From contig CAMFGY010000002.1 of the NCBI GenBank assembly GCA_945952065.1, forward strand, positions 1 to 64,000: DNA of 64,000 nt. The letters are read 5' to 3'. This stretch comes from an uncultured Burkholderiales bacterium (GTDB lineage: Bacteria > Pseudomonadota > Gammaproteobacteria > Burkholderiales > Burkholderiaceae_C). The notes below the pieces were generated by a model, which was given only the letters and a program-made list of their open reading frames with translations, ran no database searches and was not told the DNA's origin. The first letter of the stretch is position 1. The number at the start of each line of letters is the position of its first letter. Shown in pieces: positions 22,659 to 47,901 of the stretch. The position numbers and the translations under genes were made by a program.

Positions 22659-22712
22659 ACTTTAGAAAGGCAGCAGCGACGGAACTTGGTCACCGAAATG
22701 ACATTTCCGTCA
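22659..22712 (-). promoter_or_regulatory. CusR-type box plus -10 for czcE
   Basis: Read on the minus strand: TGACGGAAATGTCAT at 22712-22698, exactly 31 nt, then TCTAAAGT at 22666-22659 (-10 TAAAGT). The czcE start is at 22589, giving a leader of about 60 nt. The layout matches four other promoters in the island. The 22590-22819 gap holds nothing else recognisable. Confidence 0.75.
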
Positions 22713-22819
22713 TGCGCGGGTTACTTCTCCGCGAGTCTTGCCGAGATCGCCGAAGCCCTTTTCACCCCGAGCAAAACGTTCGGCCTAGATGCCGCTGCGT
22801 CGGGTGTAGTTGGGCACCG

Positions 22820-25168
22820 TCAGTCGCGTCGCAAGCGCAAGGCGTTGGCGATGACCGAGGCAGAGCTCAGGCTCATGGCCAGCGCCGCGATCATCGGCGA
22901 CAGCACCCAGCCGGTGAACGGATACAGCAGGCCGGCCGCAATCGGGATGCCCAGGGCGTTGTAGAGGAAGGCGAACATCAGGTTCTGCTTCATATTGCCG
23001 ACCGTCGCCTCGGACAGCGCCCGTGCCGTCGAGATGCCGCGCAGGTCGCCCTTGACCAGGGTCACCTGGGCGCTGTTCATCGCCACGTCGGTGCCCGTGC
23101 CCATGGCCACGCCGACATCGGCCTTGGCCAGGGCCGGTGCGTCGTTGATGCCGTCGCCCGCCATGGCCACGATCCGCCCCTCGGACTGCAGCCGCGACAC
23201 CAGCTCGAGCTTGTCCGCCGGTTTGACCTCGCCATGCACCTCGGCTATGCCCAGCCGGGCGCCGACGGCCTTGGCCGTCGTGAGGCCGTCGCCGGTGGCC
23301 ATGATGATCCGGATGCCGGCCGCCCGCAGCGAGGCCAGGGCCTCCGGCGTGCTGGCCTTGATCGGGTCCGAGACGGCCAGCAGTCCGAGCAGGTGGCCAT
23401 CGGCGGCCAGGTACATCACGCTGGCCCCTTCCGCGCGCAGCGACTCGGCCTCGCTCAGCAGTGCATCCACGGAAACGCCTGCCTGTTGCATCAGCGCCGT
23501 GTTGCCCAGCGCAAGCTTGCGCCCGGCCACGACACCGTTCACACCGATGCCGGTGCTGGACTCGAAGCTCTCGGGCTTGGCTAGCGGCAAACCGCGCTCG
23601 CGCGCCGCCTTGACGATGGCCTCGGCCAAGGGATGCTCGCTGCCCTGGTCCAGGCTGGCGGCCAGGCGGAGCACCTCATCAACCTCGACGCCGGGCGCCG
23701 GGACCACACGGTCGAACACCGGACGGCCCTCGGTCAGGGTACCGGTCTTGTCAACGATCAGCGTATCCACCTTGCGCAGGTTCTCGATCGCTGCGGCGTC
23801 GCGGAACAGCACCCCGCTGGTCGCACCGCGGCCGGTGGCCACCATGATGGACATCGGCGTAGCCAGGCCCAGCGCACAGGGGCAGGCAATGATGAGCACG
23901 GCCACGGCGTTCACCAGGCCATAGACCCAGCTGGGCTCGGGACCGAAGATGCCCCATGCCAGCAGCGTCAGCAGCGCGACGCCCACGACAGCCACGACGA
24001 AGTAGCCCGCGACCTGGTCGGCCATGCGCTGCATAGGCGCACGTGAACGCTGGGCTTGGGCGACCATCTGGACGATCTGCGCCAGCATCGTCGCCGATCC
24101 GACCCGCTCGGAACGCATGACCAGGGCACCATTGGTATTCAGCGTCGCGCCGATCAGCTTGTCTCCGGGGCTCTTGACGATGGGGACGGGCTCGCCGGTC
24201 AGCATCGCTTCGTCGACCGCGCTGCGGCCCTCGACGACGACGCCATCGACCGGCACCTTCTCGCCGGGACGCACACGCAGCAGATCGCCGACATGCACAT
24301 GGGACAGCGGCACATCGCTTTCCTGGCCGCTCTCATCGATGCGCCTTGCCGTCTTGGGTGCCAGGCCCAGCAGTGACTTGATCGCCGCCGAGGTCTGCGA
24401 GCGTGCCTTCAACTCCAGAATCTGACCCAGCAGGGTCAGCGAGATGATGACGGCCGCCGCCTCGAAATAGACCGCCACGCGGCCCATCGCCTGAAAGGAC
24501 GCCGGGAATAGCTGCGGTGCGACTGTGGCAATCACGCTGTAGACAAAGGCCGCGCCAGTGCCCAGGCCGATCAAAGTCCACATATTCGGGCTGCGGTTCA
24601 GCACCGACTGAGCGCCGCGCTGGAAGAACGGCAAGCCGGCCCACAGCACCACCGGCAGCGTCAAGGTCAGCTCGATCCAGCTCTGCGTGCCCATCTCGAA
24701 CCACTGCAACCGGTGGCCGACCATGGCCAGCATGGTGACGATCACGGTCAGCGGCAGGGTCCACCAGAAGCGCCGCTGAAAATCGCGCAACTCGGGGTTC
24801 TCTTCGGCCTCCAGTTCAGGCAGCAGGGGCTCCAGCGTCATGCCGCATTTGGGGCAGTTGCCGGGATGGTCCAGGCGGATCTCCGGATGCATCGGGCAGG
24901 TGTAGATCGTTGGCGCACCGGCTGCGGGTGCTGGTGCAGAAGCAGCAAGGTCTGGCATTGGCGCGTGGGCATGGTGCCCATGCTCCTGCGGTGCGCTCCC
25001 CGCCTGATGGTGCGCGTGACCCGCGTGAGCCCCCTGCTTCGCCTCGCCCTCAGGCACCAGATTCATCCCGCACTCGGGGCACCGGCCCGGCTGAGTCTGC
25101 CGAACATGAGGATGCATAGGGCAGACATAGACCATCGCCGCGACGGGCACTTCGACATCTTGTTTCAT
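22820..25168 (-). CDS. copF: Cu(I)-exporting P1B-type ATPase with two N-terminal CPMHP metal-binding domains
   Basis: The 782-residue ATPase pumps Cu(I) out of the cytoplasm. Two heavy-metal-binding domains sit at the N-terminus, each with a CPMHP and a CPxCGM motif (about residues 16-35 and 91-110), joined by a His-rich linker ([17 protein letters not shown]). No ferredoxin-like HMA domain is visible. Catalytic motifs are TGEP (about 324), the membrane CPC (about 429-431), phosphorylated D473 in DKTGT, and GDGINDAP. The last helices carry YN and MSLSS, the P1B-1 copper signature. The symbol copF follows Cupriavidus naming and is tentative. The start at 25168 has GAGAG upstream; a longer frame adds 71 unlikely residues. 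Confidence 0.92.
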
Positions 25169-25244
25169 GCGACTCTCACTTTGCGTCCGTTGACTTGCCA
25201 CCGGCAAGGCTAACCACAGCATCAGCCTTGCCACGGTGACAAGG

Positions 25245-25907
25245 TCAAGCCTCCCGACTGGGAGGGATGGCGTTCGCCGACAAGCGCGGCAGAAAGCGGG
25301 GCGTCCTCTCGGCGTAGCGCAGGTACTCGGCACCGAACTGACGCTCCATGTCGCGCTCTTCGTTGACCGCGAGGCGACCATACATCACGAGCAGGATAGG
25401 AAACATCAGCAGCGTCAGCAGCGTCGGCCATTGAACGAGGAAGCCCAGCAGTATCAGCACGAAGGCCACGTACTGCGGATGCCGGATGCGGGCATAGGGC
25501 CCGACCGTCGCCAGGCCATGGCGACGCTGCGCGTGGTACAGCACATGCCAGGCGCTCGACAGCAGCCAGAAGCCACCGCCCAGCAGGATGTAGCTGGCAA
25601 TGTGCAGAGCACCAAAGTGTGGATCGCCCTTCTCGCCCAGCAGCGTGGCCCACAGATGGCCGGAGTTGTGGCTCAACAGGTCGAGCCCCGGATAGCGCGT
25701 CTGCAGCCAGCCGGACATCAGGTAGATGGTCAGCGGAAAACCGTACATCTCGACGAACAGCGCCACGATGAAGGCGGCAAAGGCGCTGAAGCTGCGCCAA
25801 TCCCGCGCCGACTGCGGTTTGAAGAAGCTGAACGCGAACATCAGGAATACGGCCGAGTTCAGAATCACCAGGGACCAGAGGCCATAGGCCGGTGCGTCGT
25901 GCGTCAT
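25245..25907 (-). CDS. Isoprenylcysteine carboxylmethyltransferase-family membrane protein
   Basis: The 220-residue protein has about five membrane helices. It has the ICMT/phospholipid methyltransferase C-terminal pattern [23 protein letters not shown], then [26 protein letters not shown]. Bacterial members of this family are common beside copper P-type ATPases, but their substrate is unknown. The gene precedes copF by 76 nt on the same strand and overlaps the upstream DUF2933 gene by 4 nt, so all are probably one leftward operon. Confidence 0.85.
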
Positions 25908-26170
25908 GGCCGGTCTCCTTCATTGCGGTCATTGCGATGGCGATGGTGCTCCCCGCCATGGTGGTGCCCACGATGCATGAACACATGCATCAAAGGGCAG
26001 GCCAGCAGGAACGCATAGGGCAAGAAACCCAGCAGATGAGCGCGGTGTTCTTCCCAGAGGAACCAGCCGGTCACGGCGGCCAGGACGATCCAGCCGATGC
26101 CGAAACGCGAGCGCCAGAACGACGGCTGTTCTGGCGGATGCTCTGGTTGGTGCTTTGAGTCGTGATCCAT
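25904..26170 (-). CDS. DUF2933 small membrane protein
   Basis: The 88-residue protein has an acidic/His-bearing N-terminus (MDHDSKHQPEHPPEQ) and two hydrophobic helices (WIVLAAVTGWFLW and LPYAFLLACPLMHVFMH). The C-terminal tail is His-rich (HRGHHHGGEHHRHRN). Proteins of this type recur in copper and multi-metal resistance clusters. The histidine tail suggests metal binding; the role is unknown. It overlaps the next gene by 4 nt. Confidence 0.85.
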   Translation of the reverse strand: MDHDSKHQPEHPPEQPSFWRSRFGIGWIVLAAVTGWFLWEEHRAHLLGFLPYAFLLACPLMHVFMHRGHHHGGEHHRHRNDRNEGDRP

Positions 26171-26197
26171 GACGATCTCCCGATGGTGGTGAACGAC

Positions 26198-26659
26198 TTA
26201 CTTGCTGCCCTGTGCGGGTGCTGCCGGCATCCGGTCCATCATCATTTCCATCATGGTCTGCATCATGTCCATGCGCTGTTCCATGGCCTCCATGCGGGCC
26301 TTGGGATCGGCCGCCATGCCCTTCATGCCAGGAGCACCACCTCCCTTGCCGGACATCTGCTTCATCATGCCCATGCTGCCCTGCATGGCCTTCATGTGCT
26401 CGCCCATCAGCGCCTGGCGCTCCTCGGGCGTCTTCGCGTCCATCATCTTCTGGTGCATGTCCTGCATCGCCTTCATCTTGACGGCCATGTCGGCTTCCTT
26501 TGCTGGAGCCACAGCGGCGGCCTTTGCGGGCGCCTTGGCCGGCGGCGCCGAGGCAGCGCCCTCGGGGTGGTGAGCCGTGTGGTCCTGATCTTTGGGCTGA
26601 GCCGCGGCGAGACCGGTGGCAACAAGCAATGCGAGGGTTGTCATGACGATCTTGTTCAT
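26198..26659 (-). CDS. Exported Met/His-rich putative copper-binding protein
   Basis: The 153-residue protein has a signal peptide (MNKIVMTTLALLVATGLAAA) and an Ala/Lys/Pro-rich spacer. Its C-terminal half is very rich in methionine (HQKMMDAKTPEERQALMGEH, MEQRMDMMQTMMEMMMDRM). Met clusters bind Cu(I) in oxidising compartments, so periplasmic copper buffering is likely but inferred. GGAGAACTCC precedes the start at 26659; upstream codons are not signal-like. It belongs to the leftward copF operon. Confidence 0.8.
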   Translation of the reverse strand: MNKIVMTTLALLVATGLAAAQPKDQDHTAHHPEGAASAPPAKAPAKAAAVAPAKEADMAVKMKAMQDMHQKMMDAKTPEERQALMGEHMKAMQGSMGMMKQMSGKGGGAPGMKGMAADPKARMEAMEQRMDMMQTMMEMMMDRMPAAPAQGSK

Positions 26660-26807
26660 GGAGTTCTCCGATAGATTGCGGCAGGGAGGTACGACCAGGG
26701 AATTGGTCGAAGGCACGCGTGCTGCCCCGCCATCCAGCACGCGCTGTGTCAGGCGTGCAGATGCGGCGCCAACCGGAGCACGGGCTCCGGGGCGCTGGTG
26801 CAGGCGG

Positions 26808-27260: not shown

Positions 27261-27484
27261 GGAAGCTTCCAATGCTCAGCCCGCTGCGTGAGTCTAGGAG
27301 CCGATGTTCAGACTTCGAGGTGTCGTGAGACTTGATCCCCATCAAACAATCGCGCGATCCCGTGGCTTGCTGGCTGACGGCATCGACTGACCTGCCCATC
27401 GGCAGTAAATCGGTAGCCACGGAAACACTGACACGCAACAGCACCGTCAAGCGTGCACAGGACGATCTCATCGCCGCTGGCAGA

Positions 27485-27538
27485 TGACAAAACCGTAATG
27501 TCGGGGTCGGCCTTCTGTCCAGCCGAGATTCCTACAGT
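27485..27538 (+). promoter_or_regulatory. CusR-type box plus -10 for the DUF4148/OMF/oxidase operon
   Basis: TGACAAAACCGTAAT at 27485-27499, exactly 31 nt, then CCTACAGT at 27531-27538 (-10 TACAGT). The DUF4148 start is at 27612. The same arrangement occurs before the second DUF4148 gene. The divergent 27261-27484 segment must hold the promoter of the copF operon, but no second box was seen there. Confidence 0.8.
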
Positions 27539-27611
27539 CACTCCCATGGCGCAACCACTGCGCCTCAGCAGTCCAGTCAGTTTGCTGTCAATTCAACCGT
27601 AGGAGTTCTTC

Positions 27612-28067
27612 ATGCCCCGCTTCAATGTCATTGCTTCCGTTCTGTTCGCTGCGACTCTCGCAGCGCCCGCCTTTGCAGGCAACGGCTTCACGCCCGCCAA
27701 CAACGACTCTGGCGGCAGCTATCACGCCATGCCCGGAGGCAAGACCCGTGCCGAGGTCAAGGCAGAACTGGCCGCAGCCATCAAGGATGGCTCGCTGGCC
27801 AAGATGAACAGCGAAGCCGGGTACGCCCCCGAATTTGAAACGCGCAGGGCGTCGCCGCTCACCCGCGCGGAAGTGCTGAGCGAACTGAAGCGCGCCCGCG
27901 ACGACGGCTCGCTTGCCAAGATGAGCCGCAACCATTCGTACACGCCTGACACTTCGACAACAGCGCGCAGCAGCCTGAGCCGTGAGCAAGTGTTGAGCGA
28001 TCTGCAGCAGGCGCGTGATGATGGCAGCCTGCAATGCTTGAACAGCAACCAAGCTCGCAACTGCTGA
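27612..28067 (+). CDS. DUF4148 repeat protein, copper-island copy 1
   Basis: The 151-residue exported protein has a signal peptide ending AFAG (about residue 23). A conserved block NGFTPANNDSGGSYHAMPGG follows, then three copies of a short repeat, TRAEVxxELxxAxxDGSLAKM, at about 44-65, 83-104 and 122-142. Such repeats are typical of DUF4148, a common Burkholderiales family without known function. It is the first gene behind a CusR-type promoter, which implies induction by copper. A paralogue with the same promoter is at 47979. Two cysteines lie near the C-terminus. Confidence 0.87.
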   Translation: MPRFNVIASVLFAATLAAPAFAGNGFTPANNDSGGSYHAMPGGKTRAEVKAELAAAIKDGSLAKMNSEAGYAPEFETRRASPLTRAEVLSELKRARDDGSLAKMSRNHSYTPDTSTTARSSLSREQVLSDLQQARDDGSLQCLNSNQARNC

Positions 28068-28092
28068 ACGCCGATTGCCGTACACTTTGACG

Positions 28093-28518: not shown

Positions 28519-28631
28519 CCTGCGGCGGCGCACCCACAGCGCCCGGCCGCAGCCAAGAGCCGCTCGCCGAACCCGTGCACGAACGCACGAAGCTTCGGTG
28601 ACCGCCGTTCGTGTCTGCTTGCGAGATATCT

Positions 28632-29009: not shown

Positions 29010-29018
29010 GGGCATCGC

Positions 29019-30455: not shown

Positions 30456-30470
30456 TTCAGGAACAAGAAC

Positions 30471-31883: not shown

Positions 31884-31935
31884 AGTTCCATCAACACCCC
31901 CGTCCGCCACTGCGCGACATCAGAAAGGATCCCCA

Positions 31936-34958: not shown

Positions 34959-35252
34959 TCAGCCGCGGTGACCATCGTTGAGCAGTCCGTCGAGCCGCGC
35001 GCTTTCGTTGCCGACCGCTTTGATCTGCTGGCCGTCCTTGGCAGTCAGAACTTCGCCGGGCTTGAGGGTTACGGCGTGCCCGTAAGCATCCTCCTTGGCC
35101 ATCTTTCCATCCTTGAAGATGTAGAGGGTGGAGCCGTCCCGGAGTTCTACGGTGGCCTTGACCGCACGATCGAGCGCATCGCGCGCAAAGACAGGCGCGG
35201 CAGCGCCGACGAGGGCAGCCGTGAGCGCGATTGCAGTGGCGAGTGATTTCAT
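34959..35252 (-). CDS. copK: CopK-family periplasmic copper-binding protein
   Basis: The 97-residue protein has a signal peptide (MKSLATAIALTAALVGAAAPVFA) and the CopK beta-sandwich pattern: VKATVELRDGSTLYIFKDGKMAKED, then GEVLTAKDGQQIKAVGNE and a C-terminal His. C. metallidurans CopK binds Cu(I) and Cu(II) cooperatively through Met residues; this copy has few Met, so its affinity may differ. GGAAGGGGAAG supports the start at 35252. A standard CusR-type promoter lies upstream. The 153 bp between the IS and the stop hold nothing clear. Confidence 0.85.
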   Translation of the reverse strand: MKSLATAIALTAALVGAAAPVFARDALDRAVKATVELRDGSTLYIFKDGKMAKEDAYGHAVTLKPGEVLTAKDGQQIKAVGNESARLDGLLNDGHRG

Positions 35253-35309: not shown

Positions 35310-35363
35310 ACTCTAGGAATGGGGCGTCGTCACCAAGCCATCGGCAGTATTACAAATTTGTCA
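35310..35363 (-). promoter_or_regulatory. CusR-type box plus -10 for copK
   Basis: Read on the minus strand: TGACAAATTTGTAAT at 35363-35349, a nearly perfect palindrome, then exactly 31 nt, then CCTAGAGT at 35317-35310. The copK start is at 35252. Confidence 0.8.
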
Positions 35364-35512
35364 TGTATGCCGTAACGCTCAAAGCGTTGTGAAGATTTCG
35401 ATCAGCGGCTGCCGCACTGAGTCAAAGCGACCAATGACCAAGCGGAGGGCGCGCCTTCCCCAAAAGACAGCTAGCGACGCCGATGCCAGCAGCGCGGACC
35501 GCCCGCGGATGC

Positions 35513-35827
35513 TCATTTCTTCGCATCCATGCAGGCGCTCATCTGCGCCGCATAGCGATCCCTGCGCAACTGATTCTGATAGGGCGTCGTCTGCGCCCGT
35601 GGGCCGTGATCCAAGCCCATCACCGGCGCCTGCTGAGGGCACTTGGGTGAACTGGCCGCAGTGGGTGGCAAGTTGGCATAGAAGTCGCGTTGGGGCTGAG
35701 TCTGCGCCTGGGTTGCCAGCTGGCCCTTGTGATCGCGGTCCAGAGCCATGAGGTCTGGACCAGCGCACGCGGACAGGAGGACGCCCAGGGTCAGGCCGCC
35801 GGCAAGTTTGATCAGGAACCTTGTCAT
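35513..35827 (-). CDS. Small lipoprotein with an LDHGPRAQ motif
   Basis: The 104-residue protein has a lipoprotein signal (LTLGVLLSAC, lipidated Cys near residue 21). Its C-terminal part MGLDHGPRAQTTPYQNQLRRDRY shares LDHGPRAQ-S/T-TP with the protein at 46465-46761. The family is unknown to me. GGAGAAC precedes the start at 35827. A CusR-type half-match box (36017-36031) lies upstream in the same orientation, suggesting copper control. Confidence 0.75.
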   Translation of the reverse strand: MTRFLIKLAGGLTLGVLLSACAGPDLMALDRDHKGQLATQAQTQPQRDFYANLPPTAASSPKCPQQAPVMGLDHGPRAQTTPYQNQLRRDRYAAQMSACMDAKK

Positions 35828-36016: not shown

Positions 36017-36031
36017 ATTACAGATTTGAAA
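36017..36031 (-). promoter_or_regulatory. CusR-type box upstream of the LDHGPRAQ lipoprotein
   Basis: The minus strand reads TTTCAAATCTGTAAT. The sequence 31 nt downstream is not a good -10, so the spacing rule of the other promoters is not met. It lies back to back with the box at 36070-36084. Confidence 0.5.
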
Positions 36032-36069
36032 GATTTGTCCCGGCCGGATCATCGGACGCGGGGACGGCC

Positions 36070-36084
36070 TTTCAAAACCGTAAT
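36070..36084 (+). promoter_or_regulatory. CusR-type box upstream of a CusF-like gene
   Basis: TTTCAAAACCGTAAT shares the CAAAACCGTAAT core with two other boxes. At the standard 31-nt spacing stands a weak TCGAGACT; a better-looking CCTACAAC begins 39 nt downstream. Confidence 0.6.
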
Positions 36085-36190
36085 CCATCCGCCAGCCATT
36101 CGAAGGCTGTGGCGGTCGAGACTCCTACAACGCTGTTGCAGGTGGGCTGCCAGCCCATGTTCAAGGGCTCTGGATGAAGGTACGGAACCG

Positions 36191-36517
36191 GTGTTGCAAC
36201 TGATAGTGCTGATACTTTTTCTGCAAGCTGCGCCATCGAAGGCTGCGGATATGGCATCGGCGCCAAGTGGACGGGTCGCCGCGATGGGGCAAGTGGTCGG
36301 CGATGCTGAAGGGATTGTGATCAGCGTCGACGTTGAGCGGGGGCGGGTGACCTTGAAGCACGGCGCCATCCAGGCGCTCGGCATGCCCGCAATGACGATG
36401 GTGTTTCGAGCGGCCGATTCAGCGATGCTGGCCAATGTCAAGCCGGGCGACGCCATCAGGTTCAAGGTCGTTCGAGCCGAAAATCACTTCACCGTGACCC
36501 AGTTGGCTCCCCGCTGA
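36191..36517 (+). CDS. CusF-like copper-binding protein, copy 2
   Basis: The 108-residue protein has a hydrophobic leader (VLQLIVLILFLQAAPSKA). It has a CusF-type domain with GRVTLKHGAIQALGMPAMTMVF and the C-terminal FKVVRAENHFTVTQL. There is no ATG in a suitable place; GTG at 36191 (or TTG at 36194) gives a sensible signal peptide, with GAAGG about 10 nt upstream. It converges with the histidine kinase gene, 10 nt apart. A CusR-type box lies about 107 nt upstream. Confidence 0.8.
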   Translation: MLQLIVLILFLQAAPSKAADMASAPSGRVAAMGQVVGDAEGIVISVDVERGRVTLKHGAIQALGMPAMTMVFRAADSAMLANVKPGDAIRFKVVRAENHFTVTQLAPR

Positions 36518-36527: not shown

Positions 36528-37955
36528 TCAGCCCGGTGAGGCCTCGCCTCGGTCCCGGTTGGCAGCCCGCGCCACTGGAAAATGCAGCGTGAAGCGCGTT
36601 TCCCCGGCCGGCGTGCAACTCGCCTCCACGCGCCCGCCATGCAGCTTCATGATCGTCGCTACGATCGCCAGGCCGAGTCCGGAGCCACCGAGATCACGGG
36701 CTCGCGAACCGTCGACACGGTAGAACCGGTCGAACAGTCGCGTGAGGTGTTCCGGCGCGATCGGCGCGCCCTGATTCACCACATCCAGACAAACTGCCTG
36801 CCCGCGATCCTCGATGACCACCATCACCTCGGTCCCCGGCCTGCAATGGCGGAGCGCGTTGGACAGCAGGTTCGTGATCGCACGCTCGACCTGTCCCGGG
36901 TCGGCAAGAATCGTCCCGGTGCCGCGCACGACGACAGCGACATCGCGCTCCTCCGCTAGCGGCTCCAGGTAGTCGACCACCTTCGCGGCCGCGTCGTGCA
37001 GAGCCAGCGGACTCGCCTGCACGGAACTCTCGGCATGCTCCGCCTGCGCCAGGAACAGCATGTCGCTGACGAGTCGGGACATGCGCTGCAGCTCATCGAC
37101 GTTGCCTTCGAGCACGTCGAGCAGTTGCTCCCTGGTGCGTGGCTGGGACAGCGCCACCTGCGTCCGCCCCAACAAGGTGGCCAGCGGGGTGCGCATTTCG
37201 TGCGCCAGGTCGCTCGAAAACTGTCCCAGGCGCGTCACCCCATCGTCGAGCCGGTCCAACATCGCGTTGAAGGCCGCGCCCACGGCGCGGAGTTCCTCGG
37301 GCATCTGCCCCAGATCGAGCCGCGTCGACAAAGATTGGGTCGAGATGGCCGCAGCGGTCGTGCGCAGCCGCTTCAAGGGTCGAAGCCCCAGGCTGACGAT
37401 GAGGGTTGCGCTGCCCAGCACCAGGGCCAGAGCGAAAGGCGCGACGGTTGCGGAGGTCACGAGCAGGCTGCGCAGCAGGCGCTGGTCCTCGCTTCGATCC
37501 ACCGTGACGACGATCTCCAGCGGACGGGCGTCGCGGGTTTCGGCGGCCGCGGCAATGGACAACATTCGCCTGCCGTCCTCCGGGACGCGCCACTCGAGAA
37601 AGGCATCCGTGTCGAACACGTCGCTCTTCAAGCGCTCCAGCGAGGCCATCGCGTCGCGGCTGAACGCGACATAAGCCTGGGTCGAGTTGGGTTCACCCAC
37701 CGCCAGGTGGAGTTCGGCGTGGCCGGTGACGAGTTCCACCAGCCGAAAAGCGTTGGCGCGCACCGCAGTGGCGTCCTGCATGTCGGCGAGCAGCAGACGT
37801 GCCTGATCGGCTTTGTCGCGCAGCACGACGCGGCGCTGGGTGTCGAGTTCGTGCTCGAGCACGCCGTAGGTGAACAACAACACGCCGGCCGCCAGCAGCA
37901 GCCCGAGCACGGTGACCGCCAGGCCCAGCCGCAACGCCAGGCTGTGCGATGTCAT
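36528..37955 (-). CDS. Heavy-metal sensor histidine kinase (CusS family), second system
   Basis: The 475-residue kinase has TM1 at about residues 8-30 and a periplasmic sensor loop to about 160. TM2 is at about 165-190. The HAMP region is followed by the HisKA box with H252 ([15 protein letters not shown]) and the ATPase motifs [27 protein letters not shown] and [18 protein letters not shown]. It overlaps the response-regulator gene by 4 nt. Together with the regulator it is the best candidate controller of the CusCBA operon that starts on the other side of the divergent region. Confidence 0.9.
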
Positions 37956-38626
37956 GCCCGCCGCTCCAGCACATAGCCCACGCCGCGCACGGTGTGGATC
38001 AGCTTTTCCTCGAACGGATCGTCTACTTTGGCCCGCAGGCGCCGGATAGCGACCTCGACCACATTGGTGTCGGAATCGAAATTGATGTCCCAGACCATGG
38101 ACGCGATCTGCGTGCGCGACAGCACCTGGCCGGTCTTGCGCACCAGCAGCACCAGCAGGGCGAACTCCTTGGCCGACAGGTCGATGCGCTGGCCGGCGCG
38201 CAAGGCGCGGTGTTTCACCGGATCGATCTCCAGGTCGCCGATCCGCAGGTCCTCGACCTCGGGTGATCGGTTTCCGCGCTTGAGCAAGGCCCGCACCCGG
38301 GCCAGCAGCTCCGGGAACTCGAAAGGCTTGACCAGGTAGTCGTCGGCCCCCAGCTCGAAGCCTTTCACCTTGTCGTCGGTGCGGCCGCGCGCGGTGAGCA
38401 TGAGCACCGGGGTTTGCTTGGAGGTGCGCAGGGCGGACAGCACCGCGAAGCCGTCCACCCCCGGCAGCATCACGTCCAGGATGACGAGGTCGTGGTCGCC
38501 GGTGGCGGCCGCGTGCAGCCCGTCGGGGCCGGTGTGGGCCAGCTCGACCGTATAGCCGTGTTCGCTCAGGCCCTGTGAGAGGTAGGCCGCGGCGCGTGTC
38601 TCGTCTTCGACGATCAGGAGTTTCAT
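37952..38626 (-). CDS. CusR/CopR-type response regulator, second system
   Basis: The 224-residue OmpR-family regulator has the receiver [21 protein letters not shown]51 in VILDVMLPG and YLVKPFEF. The winged helix is [45 protein letters not shown]. It is close in type to the regulator at 20154, so both may recognise the same box. The box at 38660-38674 lies in the divergent region upstream. Confidence 0.9.
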
Positions 38627-38659
38627 GCTGATGAGGGCCTCGATGCGGGGCTTGAATAC

Positions 38660-38713
38660 TTACGAAACCGTAATGAAGTGGTCAGCACCACCGCTGGCCC
38701 CGAAATCAAGAAT
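38660..38713 (+). promoter_or_regulatory. CusR-type box plus -10 in the divergent regulator/exported-protein region
   Basis: TTACGAAACCGTAAT at 38660-38674, then 31 nt, then TCAAGAAT at 38706-38713 (-10 AAGAAT). It is positioned for the rightward gene at 38790. The box also lies 33 nt from the start codon of the leftward regulator, so it could serve autoregulation. Confidence 0.7.
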
Positions 38714-38789
38714 AAACCCATCACGCCACCCCATGAGCCGAATCCGGCATTCCGCCAGGTCCTGCGTATCCACTTCAGAAGGAATCGTC

Positions 38790-39131
38790 ATGAACAAGAA
38801 AATTGCCCTGTTGTCCAGCATTGTCCTGGCTATAACGGCGCTTGTTTCCGCGCCGGCAAGCGCGCAGGCCAACGCGCAGGCCGAGGCTTCGGACGCGACC
38901 AGCACCAGCTACTACTGGCTGCACCCCAAGCTCGGCTACGTCAAGGTCGATCGCGCGACGAACACGATGCTGCGCCCGGTTCAGGCCAGCCATGAGTCTA
39001 TCGACGCGAACGCGCCAGCGGCGCCGCGCAAGTATTGGCTCGACCCGAAGGGGAATATGCGTGTCCTGAATCCAGTGAATCCGGTCAAGCCAACGACCGG
39101 CAATGACGGCCCGACCGAAACGCGCCGCTGA
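38790..39131 (+). CDS. Hypothetical exported protein under a CusR-type promoter
   Basis: The 113-residue protein has a signal peptide (MNKKIALLSSIVLAITALVSAPASA). The mature part contains two related short motifs, YYWLHPKLGYVKVD and KYWLDPKGNMRVLNP. No named family is recognised. AGAAGGAATC precedes the ATG. Its place behind a standard copper box and ahead of the cus genes suggests a periplasmic copper role; inferred. Confidence 0.72.
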   Translation: MNKKIALLSSIVLAITALVSAPASAQANAQAEASDATSTSYYWLHPKLGYVKVDRATNTMLRPVQASHESIDANAPAAPRKYWLDPKGNMRVLNPVNPVKPTTGNDGPTETRR

Positions 39132-39767: not shown

Positions 39768-39903
39768 TCTTCCAAACGACGTTGCACTGACGACCGCCCA
39801 GGTCGTCTCGGTGCATAGCTTGCGCTGGCCTTCCGCCTGCGAGCTTGGTTCGCATCGGTAACGCGAGCCTGATACCTGCCCCGGTACGTTGTCTGGAGAA
39901 TCC

Positions 39904-41223
39904 ATGTTCACTGTTTCATCTCGGCCATCGCCGCGTCGCTGGGCGGCTGTCCTGACCCTGTGCGCGGCCGCCATCGGCCTGAATGCCCATGCCCAGCCCC
40001 TGCTGACCCTTGACGAGGCGTTGCGCCTTGCCCAGCAGAGGTCAAGGCAGTTACCGGCCGAAGACTTGGCGGCCACGGCGGCGCGCGAAATGGCCGTTGC
40101 CGCAGGTCAGTTGCCCGATCCGACGCTGAAGGCCGGCATCAACAACCTGCCGATCAATGGGGCCGACCGTTTCAGCCTGACGCGCGACTTCATGACCATG
40201 CGCTCGATTGGCGTGATGCAAGAGCTCACGCGCGACGACAAGCGCAAGGCCCGATCGGCTCGTTTCACCCGTGAGGCAGAAACGGCCGAAGCCAGCCGGA
40301 CGCTGGCGCTGGCCAATCTGCGCCGCGATACCGCCCTGGCCTGGTTCGACCGCCACTACCAGGAGCGTATGCGTGAGCTGCTGCACGCGCAGCGCGCCGA
40401 GACCACACTGCAGATCGAGGCGGCCGAGGCCGCCTATCGCGGAGGGCGAGGCTCGCAGGCCGACGTGTTCGCCGCGCGTTCGGCCGTGGCGCAGGTCGAT
40501 GATCGCCTCCGCCTGGCCGAGCGCCAGATCGCCACCGCGAAGACCCGGCTCGCGCGCTGGGTCGGGGACGCTGCCGAGCAAGCGCTTGGGCTGCCGCCCG
40601 ATCTGGCCTCGATGCGCCTGGATGCCGCCAGCCTGGCGACCCAACTCGACCACCACCCCCAGATCGCGCTCATGGCCAGGCAGGAAGCCATGGTGCTTGC
40701 GGACGCCGACATCGCACGGAGCAACAAGCGCTCGGACTGGAGCGTCGAGCTGATGCTCAGCCAGCGCGGTTCGGCCTATTCAAACATGGTGTCGGTGAAC
40801 GTTTCGATCCCGCTGCAATGGGACCAGAAGAACCGCCAGGATCGCGAGTTGACGGCCAAGCTGGCGACCGCCGAGCAGATGCGCGCCCAGCGCGAGGAAG
40901 TCACGCGCGAGCACCTTGCCGAAACCCGCAGTTGGCTGCAGCAGTGGCAGAGCAACCGGGATCGCATGGCGCAGTACGACAGCGCGCTGATCCCGCTCGC
41001 TTCCGACCGCACCCGTGCAGCGATCGCCGCCTATCGGGGCGGAGGCGCTCCGCTCACCTCCGTTCTGGAAGCGCGGCGCATGGAGATCGATACCCGCATG
41101 GAGCGCCTGCGCCTGGAGATGGAGACCGCGGGACTGTGGGCACAGCTTGAATATCTGATTCCGACCGAACACCAGGCGTCCGCGTCGGGCCGCCCGACTG
41201 CCGCCAAGGAGCAACAACGATGA
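39904..41223 (+). CDS. cusC: CusC-type TolC-family outer-membrane factor
   Basis: The 439-residue OMF has a Sec signal peptide ending HAQP (about residue 31). OMF repeats follow (LTLDEALRLAQQRSRQLPAEDLAATAAREMAVAAGQLPDPTLKAG; later TRAAIAAYRGGGAPLTSVLEARR). It is the outer-membrane channel of the tripartite copper pump whose adaptor and RND subunits follow directly; it overlaps cusB by 4 nt. No lipobox cysteine is visible, unlike E. coli CusC. TCTGGAGAATCC supports the start at 39904. Confidence 0.88.
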   Translation: MFTVSSRPSPRRWAAVLTLCAAAIGLNAHAQPLLTLDEALRLAQQRSRQLPAEDLAATAAREMAVAAGQLPDPTLKAGINNLPINGADRFSLTRDFMTMRSIGVMQELTRDDKRKARSARFTREAETAEASRTLALANLRRDTALAWFDRHYQERMRELLHAQRAETTLQIEAAEAAYRGGRGSQADVFAARSAVAQVDDRLRLAERQIATAKTRLARWVGDAAEQALGLPPDLASMRLDAASLATQLDHHPQIALMARQEAMVLADADIARSNKRSDWSVELMLSQRGSAYSNMVSVNVSIPLQWDQKNRQDRELTAKLATAEQMRAQREEVTREHLAETRSWLQQWQSNRDRMAQYDSALIPLASDRTRAAIAAYRGGGAPLTSVLEARRMEIDTRMERLRLEMETAGLWAQLEYLIPTEHQASASGRPTAAKEQQR

Positions 41224-42875
41224 AACTCAAACCCCTCCTGGCCGGGCTGGTCGCCGCGGCGGTACTCGGCGCCGCTGGCTACGGCCTCTACACCATGGGC
41301 ATGCATCGTGGCGTGGGCATGGCCTCGGGGACCGCGCCCGAGCAAGGCGGCGCTGCGTCGGTGGCCGCGCCCGGCGGAACTCCCTCCAATGAGTCAGGCG
41401 AAGACGCCACGCGCCGGCACATCGCAGCGGGCCTGAAGGCCGGGGACACCGACCCGGCCACAGGCAGGAAGATCCTCTACTACCACGACCCCATGGTGCC
41501 GGCGAACAAGTTCGACAAGCCGGCCAAGTCCCCGTTCATGGACATGATGATGTCGCCGGTCTACGCCGATGGCGACAACGACGGCAGTAAGGTCACGGTC
41601 AGCCCTCGCATTCAGCAGAACCTGGGCATCCGCACCGCGCCGGTGGTCGAGGGAACGCTGGCACCGCAGGTGGCGGCGGTGGGCAGCATCGCCTTCAACG
41701 AACGCGACCAAGTCATCGTGCAGGCGCGCGCAACCGGCTATGTCGAACGCCTTCACGTGCGCGCCACGCTGGACCGTGTCGCCAAGGGGCAGGCGCTGGC
41801 CGAGATGTACGTGCCGGACTGGATTGCGGCGCAGGAGGAGTTCCTGTCGGTGCGGCGGATGCAGGGCACCGAGCTCGCCGGGCTCATCGATGGCGCCCGC
41901 CAGCGCATGCGCCAGGTCGGCATGAGCGAAGCCCAGATAACGCTAGTGGAAAGCACCGGCCGCACGCAGCCGCGCATCACCCTGCTTGCGCCGATCGGCG
42001 GGGTCATCACGGAACTGACGGCGCGTGAGGGCATGACGATGATGTCCGGCGCAACGCTGTTCCGCATCAATGGCCTCGCCACCGTCTGGGCCAATGCCGA
42101 GGTGCCGGAAAGCCAATCCGCGCTGCTGCGGGTCGGCGCCAAGGTCCAGGCACGCAGCCCCGCCGCACCGGGAGCCCTCTTCGACGGCAAGGTCCAAGCG
42201 ATCCTGCCCGAGGTCAACGCGACCACACGGACGCTGAAGGCACGGCTCGAAATCTCGAACCCGCAAGGCGCGCTGGCGCCCGGCATGTTCGTGCAGATGC
42301 AATTCATGGACATGCACGCCGGCAAGGCGCTGCTGATCCCGACGGAGGCGGTGATCCAGACCGGCAAGCGCACGGTCGTGATGCTGGCCGAGGGGGATGG
42401 CACGAGCGGGCGCTTCCGCCCGGTCGAGGTCGAGATCGGCATCGAGACAGGCGGCCAGACCGAGGTCAAGCGCGGCCTCCAGGCCGGCCAGCGCGTGGTG
42501 GTGTCCTCGCAGTTCCTGATCGATTCGGAGGCCAGCCTGAAGGGCGTCGAAGCACGCCTGAATGTGGAGCCCAAACCGGACACGGCCAACACAGCCCAGC
42601 GGCATACCGGCGAAGCCAAGATCGAAGCGGTCGGGCGCGACGGGGTCACGCTGTCGCACGGCCCGATCGCATCCCTCAAGTGGGGCGCGATGACCATGGA
42701 CTTCAAGCTGCCCAAGAACAGCCCTTCCGGTCTGCCGCGCGGCATCGACGTCGGTGACCGGGTGGACTTCGAGTTCTACATGGATGCCGAAAACCAGCCG
42801 CAGCTCACCCGCATGACACTGCAGAACCCGGTGCCCAAGGCCTCGGCCCCCGTCGCTTCCGGGAGCAAGCCATGA
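41220..42875 (+). CDS. cusB: CusB-type RND adaptor with fused C-terminal CusF domain
   Basis: The 551-residue membrane-fusion protein has an N-terminal anchor/signal ([21 protein letters not shown]) and a heavy-metal-binding segment [27 protein letters not shown] at about residues 81-110. Barrel-sandwich and hairpin domains follow. The C-terminus, from about 460 to 535, is a CusF-like domain ([24 protein letters not shown]). In E. coli CusF is a separate protein; here it is tethered to the adaptor. It overlaps cusC and cusA by 4 nt each, so the three pump genes are translationally coupled. Confidence 0.92.
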
Positions 42876-45800
42876 TTGCCAAGCTGATCCGCTGGTCGAT
42901 CGTCAATCGCTTCCTGGTGTTGCTGGCCACGCTGATGATCAGCGCCTGGGGCGTCTACGCCCTGCTGCGCACGCCGCTGGATGCGCTGCCCGACCTGTCG
43001 GACGTGCAGGTCATCATCCGCACCACCTATCCGGGCCAGGCACCGCGCATCGTCGAGAATCAGATCACCTACCCGCTGACGACGACGATGCTGTCGGTGC
43101 CGGGGGCGAAGACGGTGCGCGGCTACTCGTTCTTCGGCGACAGCTTCGTCTACGTGCTGTTCGAGGACGGGACCGACCTGTACTGGGCGCGCTCGCGGGT
43201 GCTGGAATACCTGAACCAGGTGCAGGCGCGGCTGCCGCCCGGCGCGACGGCTTCGCTGGGACCGGACGCCACCGGCGTGGGCTGGATTTATCAGTATGCG
43301 CTGATCGATCGCAGCGGCAAGATGGATGCGGGCCAGCTGCGTGCGCTGCAGGACTGGTTCCTCAAGTACGAGCTGAAGACCGTGGCCAACGTCGCCGAGG
43401 TGGCCACCGTGGGCGGCATGGTGCGCCAGTACCAAGTCTTGCTCGACCCGGACAGGCTCGCGGCCTACGCGATACCGCACACCAAGGTCGTCGAGGCGAT
43501 CCGCAGGTCCAATCAGGAGAGCGGTGGCTCGGTGCTCGAGCTCGGCGAGGCCGAATACATGGTGCGCGCCTCCGGCTATCTCCAGTCGCTCGACGATTTC
43601 CGCAAAATCCCTCTGGTGAGCACCGACGCTGGCGTGTCGGTGCGGCTGGGCGACGTGGCACGCATCCAGGTCGGCCCCGAGATGCGTCGTGGCATCGGTG
43701 AGCTCGATGGCGAGGGCGAAGCCGCCGGCGGCGTGATCGTGATGCGCTCGGGCAAGAACGCGCTGGAAACGATCGCCGCCGTGAAGGCCAAGCTGCAGCA
43801 ACTGCAAGGCAGCCTGCCCAAGGGGGTCGAGATCGTGCCGACCTACGACCGCTCGGGCCTGATCGAGCGCGCGGTGGAGAACCTCGGCTTCAAGCTGCTC
43901 GAAGAATTCATCGTCGTCGCGGTGGTGTGCTTTGTCTTCCTGTTCCACCTGCGCTCGGCCTTCGTCGCCATCGTCTCGCTGCCGCTGGGCATCCTGATGG
44001 CCTTCATCGTGATGCACTATCAGGGTGTCAACGCCAACATCATGTCGCTGGGCGGCATTGCGATCGCGATCGGTGCGATGGTGGACGCAGCGGTCGTGAT
44101 GATCGAAAACGCCCACAAGCATCTCGAACATTGGAGCCACGATCATCCGGACCAAAAACTCGAAGGCGAAGAGCGCTGGAGAGTGATCGGCGATTCGGCG
44201 GCCGAGGTCGGGCCGGCGCTATTCTTCTCGCTGCTGATCATCACGCTGTCCTTCATCCCGGTCTTCACGCTGGAGGCGCAGGAGGGCCGTTTGTTCTCCC
44301 CGCTGGCCTTCACCAAGACCTATGCGATGGCGGCGGCCGCTGGACTGTCAGCCACGCTGATCCCGGTGCTGATGGGCTACCTGATCCGGGGGCGCATCCC
44401 GGACGAGAAAACCAACCCGCTGAATCGCTTCCTGATCGCGGTCTACCGCCCGCTGCTGAACGCCGTGCTGCGGGCGCCCAAGCTCACGCTGGCCGCTGCC
44501 GCGCTCGTCTTGCTGGCAAGCCTCTGGCCGCTGCAGCACATCGGCGGCGAATTCATGCCGCGGCTCGACGAGGGCGACCTGCTGTACATGCCGTCGGCGC
44601 TGCCGGGGCTGAGTGCGGGCAAGGCCGCCGAGCTGCTGCAGCAGACGGACCGCCTGATCAAGACCGTGCCCGAGGTCGCCAGCGTCTACGGCAAGGCCGG
44701 TCGGGCCGAGACGGCCACCGACCCGGCGCCACTGGAAATGTTCGAGACCACGATCCAATTCAAGCCCAAGAGCCAGTGGCGAGCCGGCATGACGCAGGAC
44801 AAGCTGGTCGATGAGCTTGACCGCATCGTCAAGGTGCCTGGCCTGGCCAACATCTGGGTGCCGCCGATCCGCAACCGCATCGACATGCTGGCCACCGGCA
44901 TCAAGAGCCCGGTGGGCGTCAAGGTCGCGGGAACCGACTTGAGTGTGATCGACCGCGTGGCTGGCGAGATCGAGAAAGCGTTGAAGGACGTGCCCGGCGT
45001 CAGCAGCGCACTCGCCGAACGCCTCACCGGCGGGCGCTACGTGGACGTGACCATCAACCGCGATGCCGCCGCGCGCTTCGGCATGAACATCGCCGACGTG
45101 CAGTCCGTCATCAGCTCGGCGGTGGGCGGCGACAACGTCGGCGAGACGGTCGAGGGTCTGCAGCGCTTCCCGATCAATGTCCGCTACCCCAGGGAGACAC
45201 GCGACTCGCTCGATAAGCTGCGCAAGCTGCCCATCGTCAGCGAGCGCGGTGCGCGGCTCGTGCTGTCCGACGTGGCCGACATCCGCATCACCGACGGTCC
45301 GCCGATGCTGCGCAGCGAGAACGCGCGCCTGTCGGGCTGGGTGTATGTGGACATTCGCGGCCGCGACCTGAGGTCTGCGGTGCAGGATATGCAGCGCGTC
45401 GTCGGCGAGAAGGTGCAGCTGCCGCCGGGCTACTCGATCTCATGGTCGGGGCAGTTCGAATTCCTGGAGCGCGCGACCGCAAAGCTGAAGGTGGTGGTGC
45501 CATTCACGCTGCTGATCATCTTCGTGCTGCTGTACCTGACCTTCAAGCGCTTCGACGAGGCGTTGCTGATCATGGCGACCTTGCCCTTCGCGTTGGTGGG
45601 AGGCATCTGGCTGCTCTACCTGCTGAGCTACAACCTGTCGGTCGCCGGGGCGGTGGGGTTCATTGCACTGGCGGGCGTGTCGGCCGAGTTCGGCGTGATC
45701 ATGCTGCTGTATCTGAAGCAGGCCTGGGACGCGCGCCTCGCGCAAGGCAAGACAAGCAACGCCGATCTGCTCGACGCCATCCGCGAAGGCGCCGTGCTGC

Positions 45801-46042
45801 GGGTTCGCCCCAAGGCGATGACGGTGGCGGTGATCCTGGCCGGCCTGTTCCCGATCATGTGGGGCACCGGCACCGGTTCGGAGGTGATGCAGCGCATCGC
45901 CGCGCCGATGGTCGGCGGCATGATCACGGCGCCGCTGCTGTCCATGTTCGTGATTCCGGCGGCTTACTTGCTGATGCGCCGCGCGCGCGAGCGGCAGGCC
46001 CCAGGGCCTGCGTTCTGGAGGAGGCGTCGTGCGCCGGTCTGA
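42872..46042 (+). CDS. cusA: CusA-type heavy-metal efflux RND transporter
   Basis: The 1056-residue inner-membrane proton-driven pump has 12 TM helices. CusA-specific signatures are [22 protein letters not shown] near residue 40 and [24 protein letters not shown] near 85. Also seen are [23 protein letters not shown] around 395 and the Met-bearing periplasmic loop [19 protein letters not shown]. The length is standard. It works with CusB and CusC encoded just upstream to expel Cu(I)/Ag(I) from the periplasm and cytoplasm. Its stop is overlapped by the next small gene. Confidence 0.94.
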
Positions 46043-46397
46043 GCAACATTGGCGGCTGCTCGCGTGCATTGGCGCCTGGCTGTGTCTGACGCTCGCGGCG
46101 GGCGGAGTCCGGGCGATGGTCCCGCCGCTGCCGGATGGGCAGGCCACGAGGTTGGTGTCGCCGATACCCGCAACATCGACTCCGCTCCAGCAGATCCTGG
46201 ACTCCATGCCCTGCGCCCGTTGCTACGTCGCCCCCCTACCCATCGACCAGGGGCCATACGAGGAGCCTGGGCGGCAGGGCAATCCCGTCCTCTGCGTACA
46301 CGATGCAGTGCCGCCGTCATCCCTCGGTTCCGCGGCCCTCGCAGCCGGTCCTCCACGCCCGTGCGCGTGTATCGCCTTCTGTCGGTGGCTGGATTGA
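46029..46397 (+). CDS. Hypothetical exported Cys-containing protein overlapping cusA
   Basis: The 122-residue protein starts at a GTG inside the last codons of cusA (14-nt overlap). It has a signal peptide ([20 protein letters not shown]), then [12 protein letters not shown] and the terminal [11 protein letters not shown]. From memory, small proteins ending in a similar CRWLD tail occur after cus-type pumps in other Burkholderiales; I cannot name a family. The cysteine pairs could bind Cu(I). Coupled translation with cusA is likely. Confidence 0.65.
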
Positions 46398-46464
46398 TCA
46401 ATCGAAGCAGCGCCCCACGCGCGTTCGAGTCCCGCGAGATCAACCCACACCATTGGAGTCCGTC

Positions 46465-46761
46465 ATGAAGAAGCTGCACATCACCGTGGTCGGCAGCATT
46501 GCATTGGGGGCCTTGCTGCCGGTGTTCGCCGGCCCCGACTGGCAGGCCATCGAGTCGGCGCGTAAGAACCACCGCGCCCAGGTTGCACGAATGGAAAAAC
46601 TCAGCCCCGAGGAGAAATGCGCCGCCAAGCGGCTCGCGCTGCCGCTTGATCATGGGCCACGCGCGCAATCGACGCCCGACCTGAACGAGAAGCGCAGGGA
46701 GAGCTTCGAGGCCGAACTGAAGGCCTGCAAGGAAGCCGCCGCCAAGGAGGCCGTGCAATGA
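46465..46761 (+). CDS. Small exported protein with an LDHGPRAQ motif
   Basis: The 98-residue protein has a signal peptide (MKKLHITVVGSIALGALLPVFAG) and a charged helical body (PDWQAIESARKNHRAQVARMEKL). It shares LPLDHGPRAQSTPDLNEKRR with the lipoprotein at 35513-35827. Function is unknown. TTGGAGTCC supports the start at 46465. It overlaps the DUF411 gene by 4 nt, suggesting joint expression with copG copy 2. Confidence 0.8.
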   Translation: MKKLHITVVGSIALGALLPVFAGPDWQAIESARKNHRAQVARMEKLSPEEKCAAKRLALPLDHGPRAQSTPDLNEKRRESFEAELKACKEAAAKEAVQ

Positions 46762-47216
46762 AGCCGCATCGCAGAAATTTCAGCGTGCTGGTGCTCGTCG
46801 CCCTGGTCGGCCGCCCCTTGCTGGCCAGGGCGGCGCCGCCGCTGGTCGAAGTTTGGAAATCGCCCACCTGCGGCTGCTGCAAGGACTGGGTCAAGCATCT
46901 GGAGGCCAATGGCTTCACGGTCAAGACGCATGACACCGGCAACACCGATGTGCGCGCCCGGCTTGGCATGCCGATCAGGTATGGCTCATGTCATACGGCG
47001 CAGGTGGCCGGCTACGCGCTCGAGGGCCATGTGCCTGCAAGTGAGGTGTTGCGCCTGCTGAAACAGCGTCCCGAAGCCGTCGGGCTGGCCGTTCCCGCGA
47101 TGCCCAGAGGCTCGCCCGGCATGGATGGACCCGCCTACCGCGGGCATCGCGACCCTTTCGACGTCTTGCTGGTGAAGCGTGACGGCAGCGCCAGCCCTTA
47201 TCAGTCTTACCGCTAG
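46758..47216 (+). CDS. copG: CopG-like DUF411 protein, copy 2
   Basis: This 152-residue exported protein is paralogous to the one at 32489. It has the same CxCC motif (TCGCCKDWVKHLEANGF), the same DTGNTD, YGSCHTA and LEGHVPA segments, and the GSPGMDGPAYRGHRDPFDVLLV tail. The signal peptide is residues 1 to about 27 (VLVALVGRPLLARA). It overlaps the LDHGPRAQ gene by 4 nt and is followed by CusF copy 3 after 43 nt, repeating the copG-cusF order of the first operon. Confidence 0.88.
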   Translation: MKPHRRNFSVLVLVALVGRPLLARAAPPLVEVWKSPTCGCCKDWVKHLEANGFTVKTHDTGNTDVRARLGMPIRYGSCHTAQVAGYALEGHVPASEVLRLLKQRPEAVGLAVPAMPRGSPGMDGPAYRGHRDPFDVLLVKRDGSASPYQSYR

Positions 47217-47259
47217 AGCGCCGGTTGCGCTCAACTCAAGCTCACCAAAGGAAATCGAC

Positions 47260-47607
47260 ATGAAGAACTCTGCACGCACCTCCCTGCTTCTGGCCCTGCT
47301 GCTCTCCACCGGGTCGGCCATGGCTCAGGCCAAGATGGACGAGATGAAGGGCATGGACATGGCCAAGAAACCGTCCGCCGGCGTGTCAGCAAAGCACATG
47401 GCCACGGGCTTGGTCAAGAAAGTGGATGCGAAGACAGGGGTGGTGACCCTTGCGCACGAGCCGGTCAAGACCCTGAACTGGCCCGCGATGACAATGGGCT
47501 TCAAGGTCAAGGACAAGATGCTGATGGACAAGCTCGGCGAGGGTAAGAAGGTCGCTTTCGAATTCATGCAGGATGGCAGCGACTACGTCATTACCGCTGT
47601 GAAGTGA
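47260..47607 (+). CDS. CusF-like copper-binding protein, copy 3
   Basis: The 115-residue periplasmic protein has a signal peptide (LLLALLLSTGSAMAQ) and the CusF domain VTLAHEPVKTLNWPAMTMGF. It retains the tryptophan next to the Met site as in E. coli CusF (cation-pi contact to Cu(I)), whereas copies 1 and 2 have D-M-P or G-M-P there. The extended Met segment MDEMKGMDMAK precedes the domain. AAAGGAAATC supports the start. Confidence 0.9.
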   Translation: MKNSARTSLLLALLLSTGSAMAQAKMDEMKGMDMAKKPSAGVSAKHMATGLVKKVDAKTGVVTLAHEPVKTLNWPAMTMGFKVKDKMLMDKLGEGKKVAFEFMQDGSDYVITAVK

Positions 47608-47847
47608 GCTGTACCGGATCCCGGCGCGATTCGGAATTCCTTGGCCCATTCGCAAGCGGCCGGTGACGGCCCTGTCGGCAATGCCGGCTTCACGGCCATC
47701 GCAGGCAGCGTCGATCACCCGTACGCTGCGCGCCAAACTCGGTCACGCACCGGGCCACCCGCCCGTCGGTGCCAGGCCCGCGCCCACCGCGATCAGAGCC
47801 AGAAGCCTGATGAAGGTTGAGGCCATACGCCGGCGGCCCTTGGTTTC

Positions 47848-47901
47848 TTGCAAAACCGTAATCCTCTGGACAGCTCAGCGTCGGGCCTCGATTTCTACAG
47901 T
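47848..47901 (+). promoter_or_regulatory. CusR-type box plus -10 for the second DUF4148 gene
   Basis: TTGCAAAACCGTAAT at 47848-47862, exactly 31 nt, then TCTACAGT at 47894-47901. The DUF4148 start is at 47979. The arrangement is the same as at 27485-27538. Confidence 0.8.

Follow-up and report, generated by a model that had tools for sequence, protein, structure and literature searches.

Copper promoters with an inverted repeat within 16 bp are represented by the cop box of Pseudomonas syringae CopR and by the PcoR box, reportedly described by Mills (1994) and by Rouch and Brown (1997), both cited in PMC7380067 and the former also in PMC7763554. Sites of this type were analyzed here in the copper island of an uncultured Burkholderiales bacterium, using a stretch of 64,000 nt (contig CAMFGY010000002.1, positions 1 to 64,000; hereafter the window). 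Related operators have been studied in Cupriavidus metallidurans and Pseudomonas, and the statements made on them here follow the openly licensed passages of the papers cited. The operator of the C. metallidurans regulator AgrR, ATKACANNNNTGTMAT, was footprinted and mutants of its inverted and direct repeats were studied; AgrR also bound the czc and cop promoters (PMC7380067). In C. metallidurans CH34 a 37-bp motif was detected with MEME approximately 50 bp upstream of the primary starts of the cop cluster other than those of copG, copK and copO, and also at cusA, cupA, cupC, copB2 and silD; in the passages on this motif the distance to the -10 is not given exactly, inverted and direct repeats are not told apart, and nothing is said of its conservation elsewhere (PMC7563307). 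The cop starts of P. putida were mapped, the CopR footprints were extended and contained several TGACA-like motifs, and two CopRs bound the same sites with different outcomes (PMC12428095).

An initial annotation of the window had listed five promoters, each with a 15-bp box, a 31-nt spacer and an octamer containing the -10, and had proposed one regulon with one activation geometry. The five-promoter observation is real, yet of a known kind, since the same plan recurs in related bacteria. These are most probably (roughly 85%) class II-type promoters that belong to a single copper (or copper/silver) regulon and are switched on by the CopR/CusR-family regulators encoded in the island. Already published are the operator, its inverted and, in some operators, direct repeats, class II-type activation, the regulon, and a motif that precedes most C. 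metallidurans cop starts by about 50 bp. What is new, as far as the open-licence passages show, is that the 33-nt distance is exact and conserved, that most sites carry the two repeats with an 11-nt period, that the island has three additional sites, and that CzcE, CopK and some of the DUF4148 genes are tied to this layout across the family. The titles and abstract beginnings of nine papers mentioning DUF4148 contained no link to copper.

Layout of the promoters

The five boxes, spacers and octamers were all found in the window as quoted. The boxes were in the right place and lacked the first base of the true 16-mer: the operator is a 16-bp inverted repeat, ATKACR-N4-YGTMAT, of the CopR/CusR/AgrR type. 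Distances are given as the nucleotides between the end of the box and the first base of the -10 hexamer, so the 31 nt plus two octamer bases become +33. The five sites listed initially are designated A to E; F, G and H were added in the follow-up.

Site A (27484..27499, plus strand, ATGACAAAACCGTAAT) has the -10 hexamer TACAGT at 27533-27538 and site B (47847..47862, plus strand, CTTGCAAAACCGTAAT) has the same hexamer at 47896-47901. On the minus strand, TAGAGT (35315-35310) follows site C (35349..35364, ATGACAAATTTGTAAT), TAAAGT (22664-22659) follows site D (22698..22713, ATGACGGAAATGTCAT) and TAAGGT (20068-20063) follows site F (20102..20117, ATTACGAATTTGTCAT). These five have TAnnnT at +33, as do cusC and copA1 (below). 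TAnnnT was absent at +33 from site E (38659..38674, plus strand, CTTACGAAACCGTAAT; slot AAGAAT at 38708-38713, 2.7 bits), site G (36069..36084, plus strand, CTTTCAAAACCGTAAT; GAGACT at 36118-36123, 4.0 bits) and site H (36017..36032, minus strand, CTTTCAAATCTGTAAT; CAGTCT at 35983-35978, 3.8 bits), the last being compatible with the looser (T/C)AnnnT found in relatives. The consensus was matched exactly by A, C, D and F, with one mismatch by E and with two by B; G and H had three and two mismatches, respectively, to the stricter AgrR form. From the initial list A to D thus stand as strong sites and E misfits in its spacer and -10, while the strong site F and the weaker G and H had been overlooked.

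The parallel with E. coli CusR that had been drawn initially proved exact: at cusC, ATGACAATTTTGTCAT is followed after 33 nt by TAAAGT. The cusC promoter resembles the island sites in the class of the 16-mer, in the 33 nt and in a GTCA at +7, whereas the genes served differ. In C. metallidurans the published copA1 start, pMOL30 position 191,243 (5' RACE confirmed the start of copA; PMC7563307), lies 8 nt past TACTCT, a hexamer at +33 from a box with 3 mismatches. With this calibration the box would extend from about -63 to -48. The island operator is close to the published AgrR form; the AgrR site is centred at -43.5, whereas the island sites would centre at about -55.5, 12 nt (about one helical turn) farther upstream. 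AgrR differs further as a silver-resistance regulator that was active unphosphorylated in the mutant studied (PMC7380067).

Enrichment was measured against 50 dinucleotide-Markov sequences. The window had 4 boxes that departed from the AgrR consensus at no more than one base (0.16 expected). At up to three mismatches there were 33 (23.3 expected), so the weak matches are mostly noise. The genome to which the window belongs (own genome; 5,266,936 bases, 74 contigs) contains the exact ATKACR-N4-YGTMAT at 10 places and the box with up to one mismatch at 88, and the box alone is therefore not specific enough. Four of the exact boxes are in the window (20102, 22698, 27484 and 35349), each with TAnnnT at +33 in one orientation, and for the remaining six neither orientation has it. 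The box at 20102 (minus strand) is absent from the initial annotation and is thus an out-of-sample success. The full rule, a 16-bp box with GWCRG at +7 and +18 and (T/C)AnnnT from +34, appears specific enough to pick copper-regulon genes in raw genomes.

Models from other genomes

The relatives set consisted of 80 loci coding for close relatives of response regulator 2 of the island (described below), with boxes present in 50. TAnnnT began at +33 in 34 of 149 oriented boxes (at most one mismatch), and at any other offset from 5 to 59 in no more than 5. After removal of redundancy the count at +33 was 15 of 97, for a background of 0.56% per position (p 1.6e-17).

A sequence-only model, R1, was made from 14 of 15 relatives' sites; locus L073 was omitted because it looks like a chance match in a coding gene. 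With 150 of 815 first-look candidates scored, R1 gave four matches at E<=10 in the own genome, namely the island sites C, B, F and A. It matched 82 of 200 sampled family genomes at E<=0.05, own genome included. Model R2 was made from 26 of 30 loci fetched from the family-genome scan, none of them from the own genome; L111, L114 and L130 were omitted because the chosen orientation lacked the -10, and L135 because it had no good box. With 150 of 1994 candidates scored, the best five places for R2 in the own genome were C (E 2.2e-6), A (5.6e-5), B (3.1e-4), F (0.012) and D (0.08, without an R1 match), and the remaining nine matches were partial with E>0.5. Of 18 same-genus genomes, 10 had an R2 match at E<=0.1, own genome included.

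The looser (T/C)AnnnT was taken up after the R2 loci had been inspected, and was used in the gene-centred, spacer, fixed-spacing and compensation tests. A fixed-spacing matrix was built from 68 other-genome sites with a box of at most two mismatches and [TC]AnnnT at +33, after removal of five sites that shared 70% identity or more with a site of the window. The eight best positions in the window were A (54.7), C (53.4), D (45.1), B (41.9), F (40.3), H (22.3), G (21.7) and E (6.6); the ninth scored 0.6, and the maximum over 20 Markov windows was 9.4. Because its score falls inside the control range, E is not separable with this matrix. The scans of the own genome and of the 200 family genomes, made with models from other genomes, give good support to the initial proposal of a single regulon and a single activation geometry. 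More than chance is shown for A to D and not for E.

Repeats in the spacer

The spacer is not blank. Two half-site-like repeats are usual, 11 and 22 nt past the proximal half-site; in site A they are at 27506-27510 and 27517-27521 on the plus strand. Of 73 non-redundant sites, 47 had GWC at +7 and 51 had it at +18, and no other offset had it in more than 9; no conserved -35-like hexamer appeared among the columns of these 73. Both repeats are half-sites of the GTMAT kind. By the copA1 calibration they would lie at about -41 to -37 and -30 to -26, flanking the expected place of a -35 element. Repeat matrices from 14 relatives peaked at +7 in window sites A to F, with +18 the second-best offset. 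The joint repeat score of A to F was reached by 0 of 5000 shuffles, and that of cusC alone by about 6 of 5000. In the fixed-spacing matrix the spacer score was positive for A to D and for F to H, and negative for E.

PhoB-type tandem operators contain TGTCA-like half-sites as direct repeats at an 11-nt period. An 11-nt period is seen here as well, with GWC at +7 and +18 after GTMAT, and tandem binding may go with it.

Genes served by the promoters

A CzcE-family gene (22242..22589, minus strand; PF16986, 3e-21, 75.8 bits for a cut-off of 30) is downstream of D, and a CopK gene (34959..35252, minus strand; PF11525, 1.8e-23, 82.4 bits for a cut-off of 23.8), the start of which was selected from its translation, is downstream of C. 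DUF4148 genes (PF13663) are downstream of A (27612..28067, plus strand; 2.2e-21) and of B (47979..48395, plus strand; 1.3e-17), and their proteins are 49% identical across the aligned stretch. Site F is directed toward gene 19517-19879, whose product begins with a signal-like stretch and matches DUF2946 at a sub-threshold score. Sites G and H are arranged back to back, G toward a CusF-family gene (36191-36517) and H toward a 104-aa open reading frame (ORF; 35513-35827) without a match in Pfam. Downstream of E is an exported protein gene (38790..39131, plus strand) with a signal-like start, judged by eye, and without a Pfam match; its protein was present in 1 other of 199 sampled family genomes. 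The cus genes of the resistance-nodulation-division (RND) type (39889-46042) are further downstream of E on the same strand.

For a gene-centred test, the 450 nt upstream of each protein match were searched and the best box was selected without a condition on the -10; success was defined as a box of at most three mismatches with (T/C)AnnnT exactly at +33. The DUF4148 loci were fetched by similarity to the protein at B. Success was recorded at 15 of 23 CopK, 19 of 29 CzcE and 15 of 30 DUF4148 loci, and shuffles of the full sets, which leave relatedness uncorrected, gave 0.34, 0.27 and 0.24. With the window's four loci taken out, the counts in other genomes were 14/22, 18/28 and 13/28. Some rows are near copies and four rows come from one genome (G174), and the counts are therefore not independent events; the non-redundant sets of 73 and 63 sites agree with them. 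The genes czcE, copK and both DUF4148 genes are firmly tied to the regulon proposed initially, and the exported protein at E is not firmly tied to it. The spacing is not specific to the island, being found at cusC, at C. metallidurans copA and at many CopK, CzcE and DUF4148 loci elsewhere. Through the rule these small periplasmic families are linked to copper-type control in several genera.

Among 16 gene starts examined on pMOL30, a box with TAnnnT at +33 was found at copA, a CzcE-family gene, a small gene and RMET_RS30545. The CzcE-family gene is presumably copH, and the small gene is taken to be copQ. The presumed copQ product was rejected as a DUF4148 protein: it had no Pfam match, and its E value to the window protein was only 0.029.

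The island has a close counterpart in G174, a genome of another genus of the same family, where C1 from about 1901000 to 1926200 contains matching CopK, CzcE and DUF4148 loci. The similarity (92% identical DNA over 900 nt around E) suggests recent transfer.

Regulators in the island

Response regulator 1 (20154..20840, plus strand) scored 310.3 bits with the cztR_silR_copR model TIGR01387 (cut-off 279.2; scored as 20145-20840) and is followed by sensor kinase 1 (20837..22225, plus strand; TIGR01386, 365.1 bits, cut-off 292.55). Response regulator 2 (37952..38626, minus strand) scored 336.0 bits and sensor kinase 2 (36528..37955, minus strand) 439.0 bits with the same two models. Neither regulator reached the cut-off of 420 for PRK09836, the E. 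coli copper/silver regulator equivalog (277.4 and 277.2 bits), which places both in the same subfamily as PRK09836 and outside that equivalog. Both closely resemble pMOL30 CopR1 and E. coli CusR in a C-terminal stretch that we take to be the recognition region. As the two regulators are 63% identical and both above the cztR_silR_copR cut-off, the sites are not assignable to one or the other by sequence.

Boxes lie only 36 and 32 nt ahead of the two regulator genes (20102-20154 and 38626-38674). The F box, 36 nt upstream of the ATG of regulator 1, is on the opposite strand and its promoter points away from that gene. If the regulator genes used these boxes their mRNAs would be nearly leaderless, and promoters directed at regulators 1 and 2 were rejected, TAnnnT being absent within 90 nt of either box.

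Regulator 2 has its closest relative (80% identical) at 10001-10669 of locus L024. The upstream region there is non-homologous, and the ORFs listed at 8500-10100, which were not compared with a library, include no obvious metal gene; its signal may therefore be other than copper.

Mechanism and alternatives

In sequence these promoters show the inverted repeat, two GWCRG repeats (in most sites of relatives), no conserved -35 hexamer, and (T/C)AnnnT at exactly +33; the promoters are probably sigma-70-dependent. A regulator would bind the inverted repeat and then tandemly along the spacer repeats, from about -63 to -26. The last protomers, around the missing -35 element, would contact sigma region 4 or alpha, so that an array of CopR protomers would stand in for the -35 element and activate RNA polymerase; a contiguous array of this kind is proposed as the reason for the invariant spacing. 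The genes served would be those for CzcE, CopK, the two DUF4148 proteins and the small protein at F, with CusF (G), the ORF at H and the exported protein at E as probable further targets; the multicopper oxidase and RND pump genes may be included through read-through. A broader formulation, to which we give somewhat less than even odds, is that these are hybrid operators in which a head-to-head pair of half-sites is joined to a PhoB-like 11-nt tandem array beside the -35, that the 33 nt are the continuous footprint of three or four protomers from Enterobacteria to Burkholderiales, and that the layout marks a copper-specific subset of the little-understood DUF4148 family. With this layout the activation mechanism of these regulators becomes a question of simple spacer and repeat mutations.

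Several results weigh against this interpretation. No R1 match at E<=0.05 was obtained in 118 of the 200 sampled family genomes and no R2 match at E<=0.1 in 8 of the 18 same-genus genomes, and the own-genome searches scored 150 of 815 and 150 of 1994 first-look candidates. The layout was absent at 8 of 22 CopK, 10 of 28 CzcE and 15 of 28 DUF4148 loci of other genomes. On pMOL30 only 4 of the 16 starts examined had it, copK not among them, and MEME gave no CH34 motif at copG, copK and copO (PMC7563307). No recognizable -10 or -35 was reported at the mapped P. putida starts, for which the authors propose an unknown sigma factor or mechanism (PMC12428095). In the window, the -10 slots of G and H are weak, and E combines a good box with a spacer score of -9.4 and a slot, AAGAAT, that is not TAnnnT. 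Finally, compensation of a weak distal half-site by stronger direct repeats was sought in 63 non-redundant sites selected for an exact proximal half-site and (T/C)AnAnT at +33, with the spacer and the distal half unconstrained. None was found (rho -0.17, p 0.19), which leaves the tandem-array step without covariation support. All 63 sites had at most three mismatches in the distal half, and their repeat scores were near 4 of 5, against 1.8 at control offsets, except in the six sites with three distal mismatches (3.2 and 3.7).

The absence of compensation speaks for an alternative in which only the 16-bp inverted repeat is bound, the motifs at +7 and +18 being sigma or alpha contacts and the spacing a product of ordinary class II geometry alone. 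The box columns are also more informative than the repeats, though the sites were selected on the box. We consider this unlikely, given that AgrR mutants of the promoter-proximal direct repeat lost most activation, that the AgrR interference map has three major-groove segments on one face (PMC7380067), and that the extended P. putida CopR footprints contain several TGACA-like motifs (PMC12428095). A somewhat better, still minority, chance is given to sites of a related metal regulator (CzcR, AgrR or IrlR; zinc or silver), or of several that cross-talk, with copper not the sole signal. In Pseudomonas the pcoA2-cusR site of CusR is also bound by IrlR, MmnR and CzcR, and CopR, CusR and CzcR have further targets in common (PMC11195947); the binding of AgrR to czc and cop promoters (PMC7380067), the likeness of the island regulators, CopR1 and CusR in the presumed recognition stretch, and the setting of the regulator at L024 point the same way. 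The presence of copK among the genes served and the same layout at cusC and copA argue for a copper regulon instead. Chance, or the pairing of box-like words with convenient -10-like words by the reader, is very improbable for the set as a whole after three out-of-sample tests (R2 scan, gene-centred test and fixed-spacing matrix), the loci of which are partly shared. It is refuted for A, B, C, D and F and may still hold for E, which fails the full matrix and was not recovered by R1 or R2 genome-wide.

Site E and other boxes

Around E the window and G174 were compared over the 900 nt of 92% identity. The 90 nt from 38659 to 38748 (box through slot plus 35 nt; limits set after the alignment was seen) contained 1 change, and the other 73 intergenic positions contained 13 (Fisher over 900 nt, p 0.007). 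We read E as a real control region with an uncertain start position. Other support for E was sought and rejected: no alignment was obtained of its protein as a SilD homologue, no match was found to relatives on plasmids, and the upstream region of L024 was non-homologous.

Four exact boxes outside the island are on contig C1 of G000 (L017) at 138219, 140524, 144685 and 144728, two of them 43 nt apart. They were rejected as copper promoters, with the slot lacking a -10 and fixed-spacing matrix scores of -2.6 or less, and may belong to another regulator.

In Pseudomonas loci L041, L045, L047, L051, L064 and L072, TAnnnT was seen at a fixed distance from CopR-like boxes, which may be a simpler answer to the missing -10 of P. 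putida. Toward-regulator geometry was looked at in 60 of the 80 regulator loci. In L043, L045, L048, L051 and L064 a single palindrome shows two geometries: TAnnnT is at +33 on the side facing away from the regulator gene and at +26 or +27 on the side facing it.

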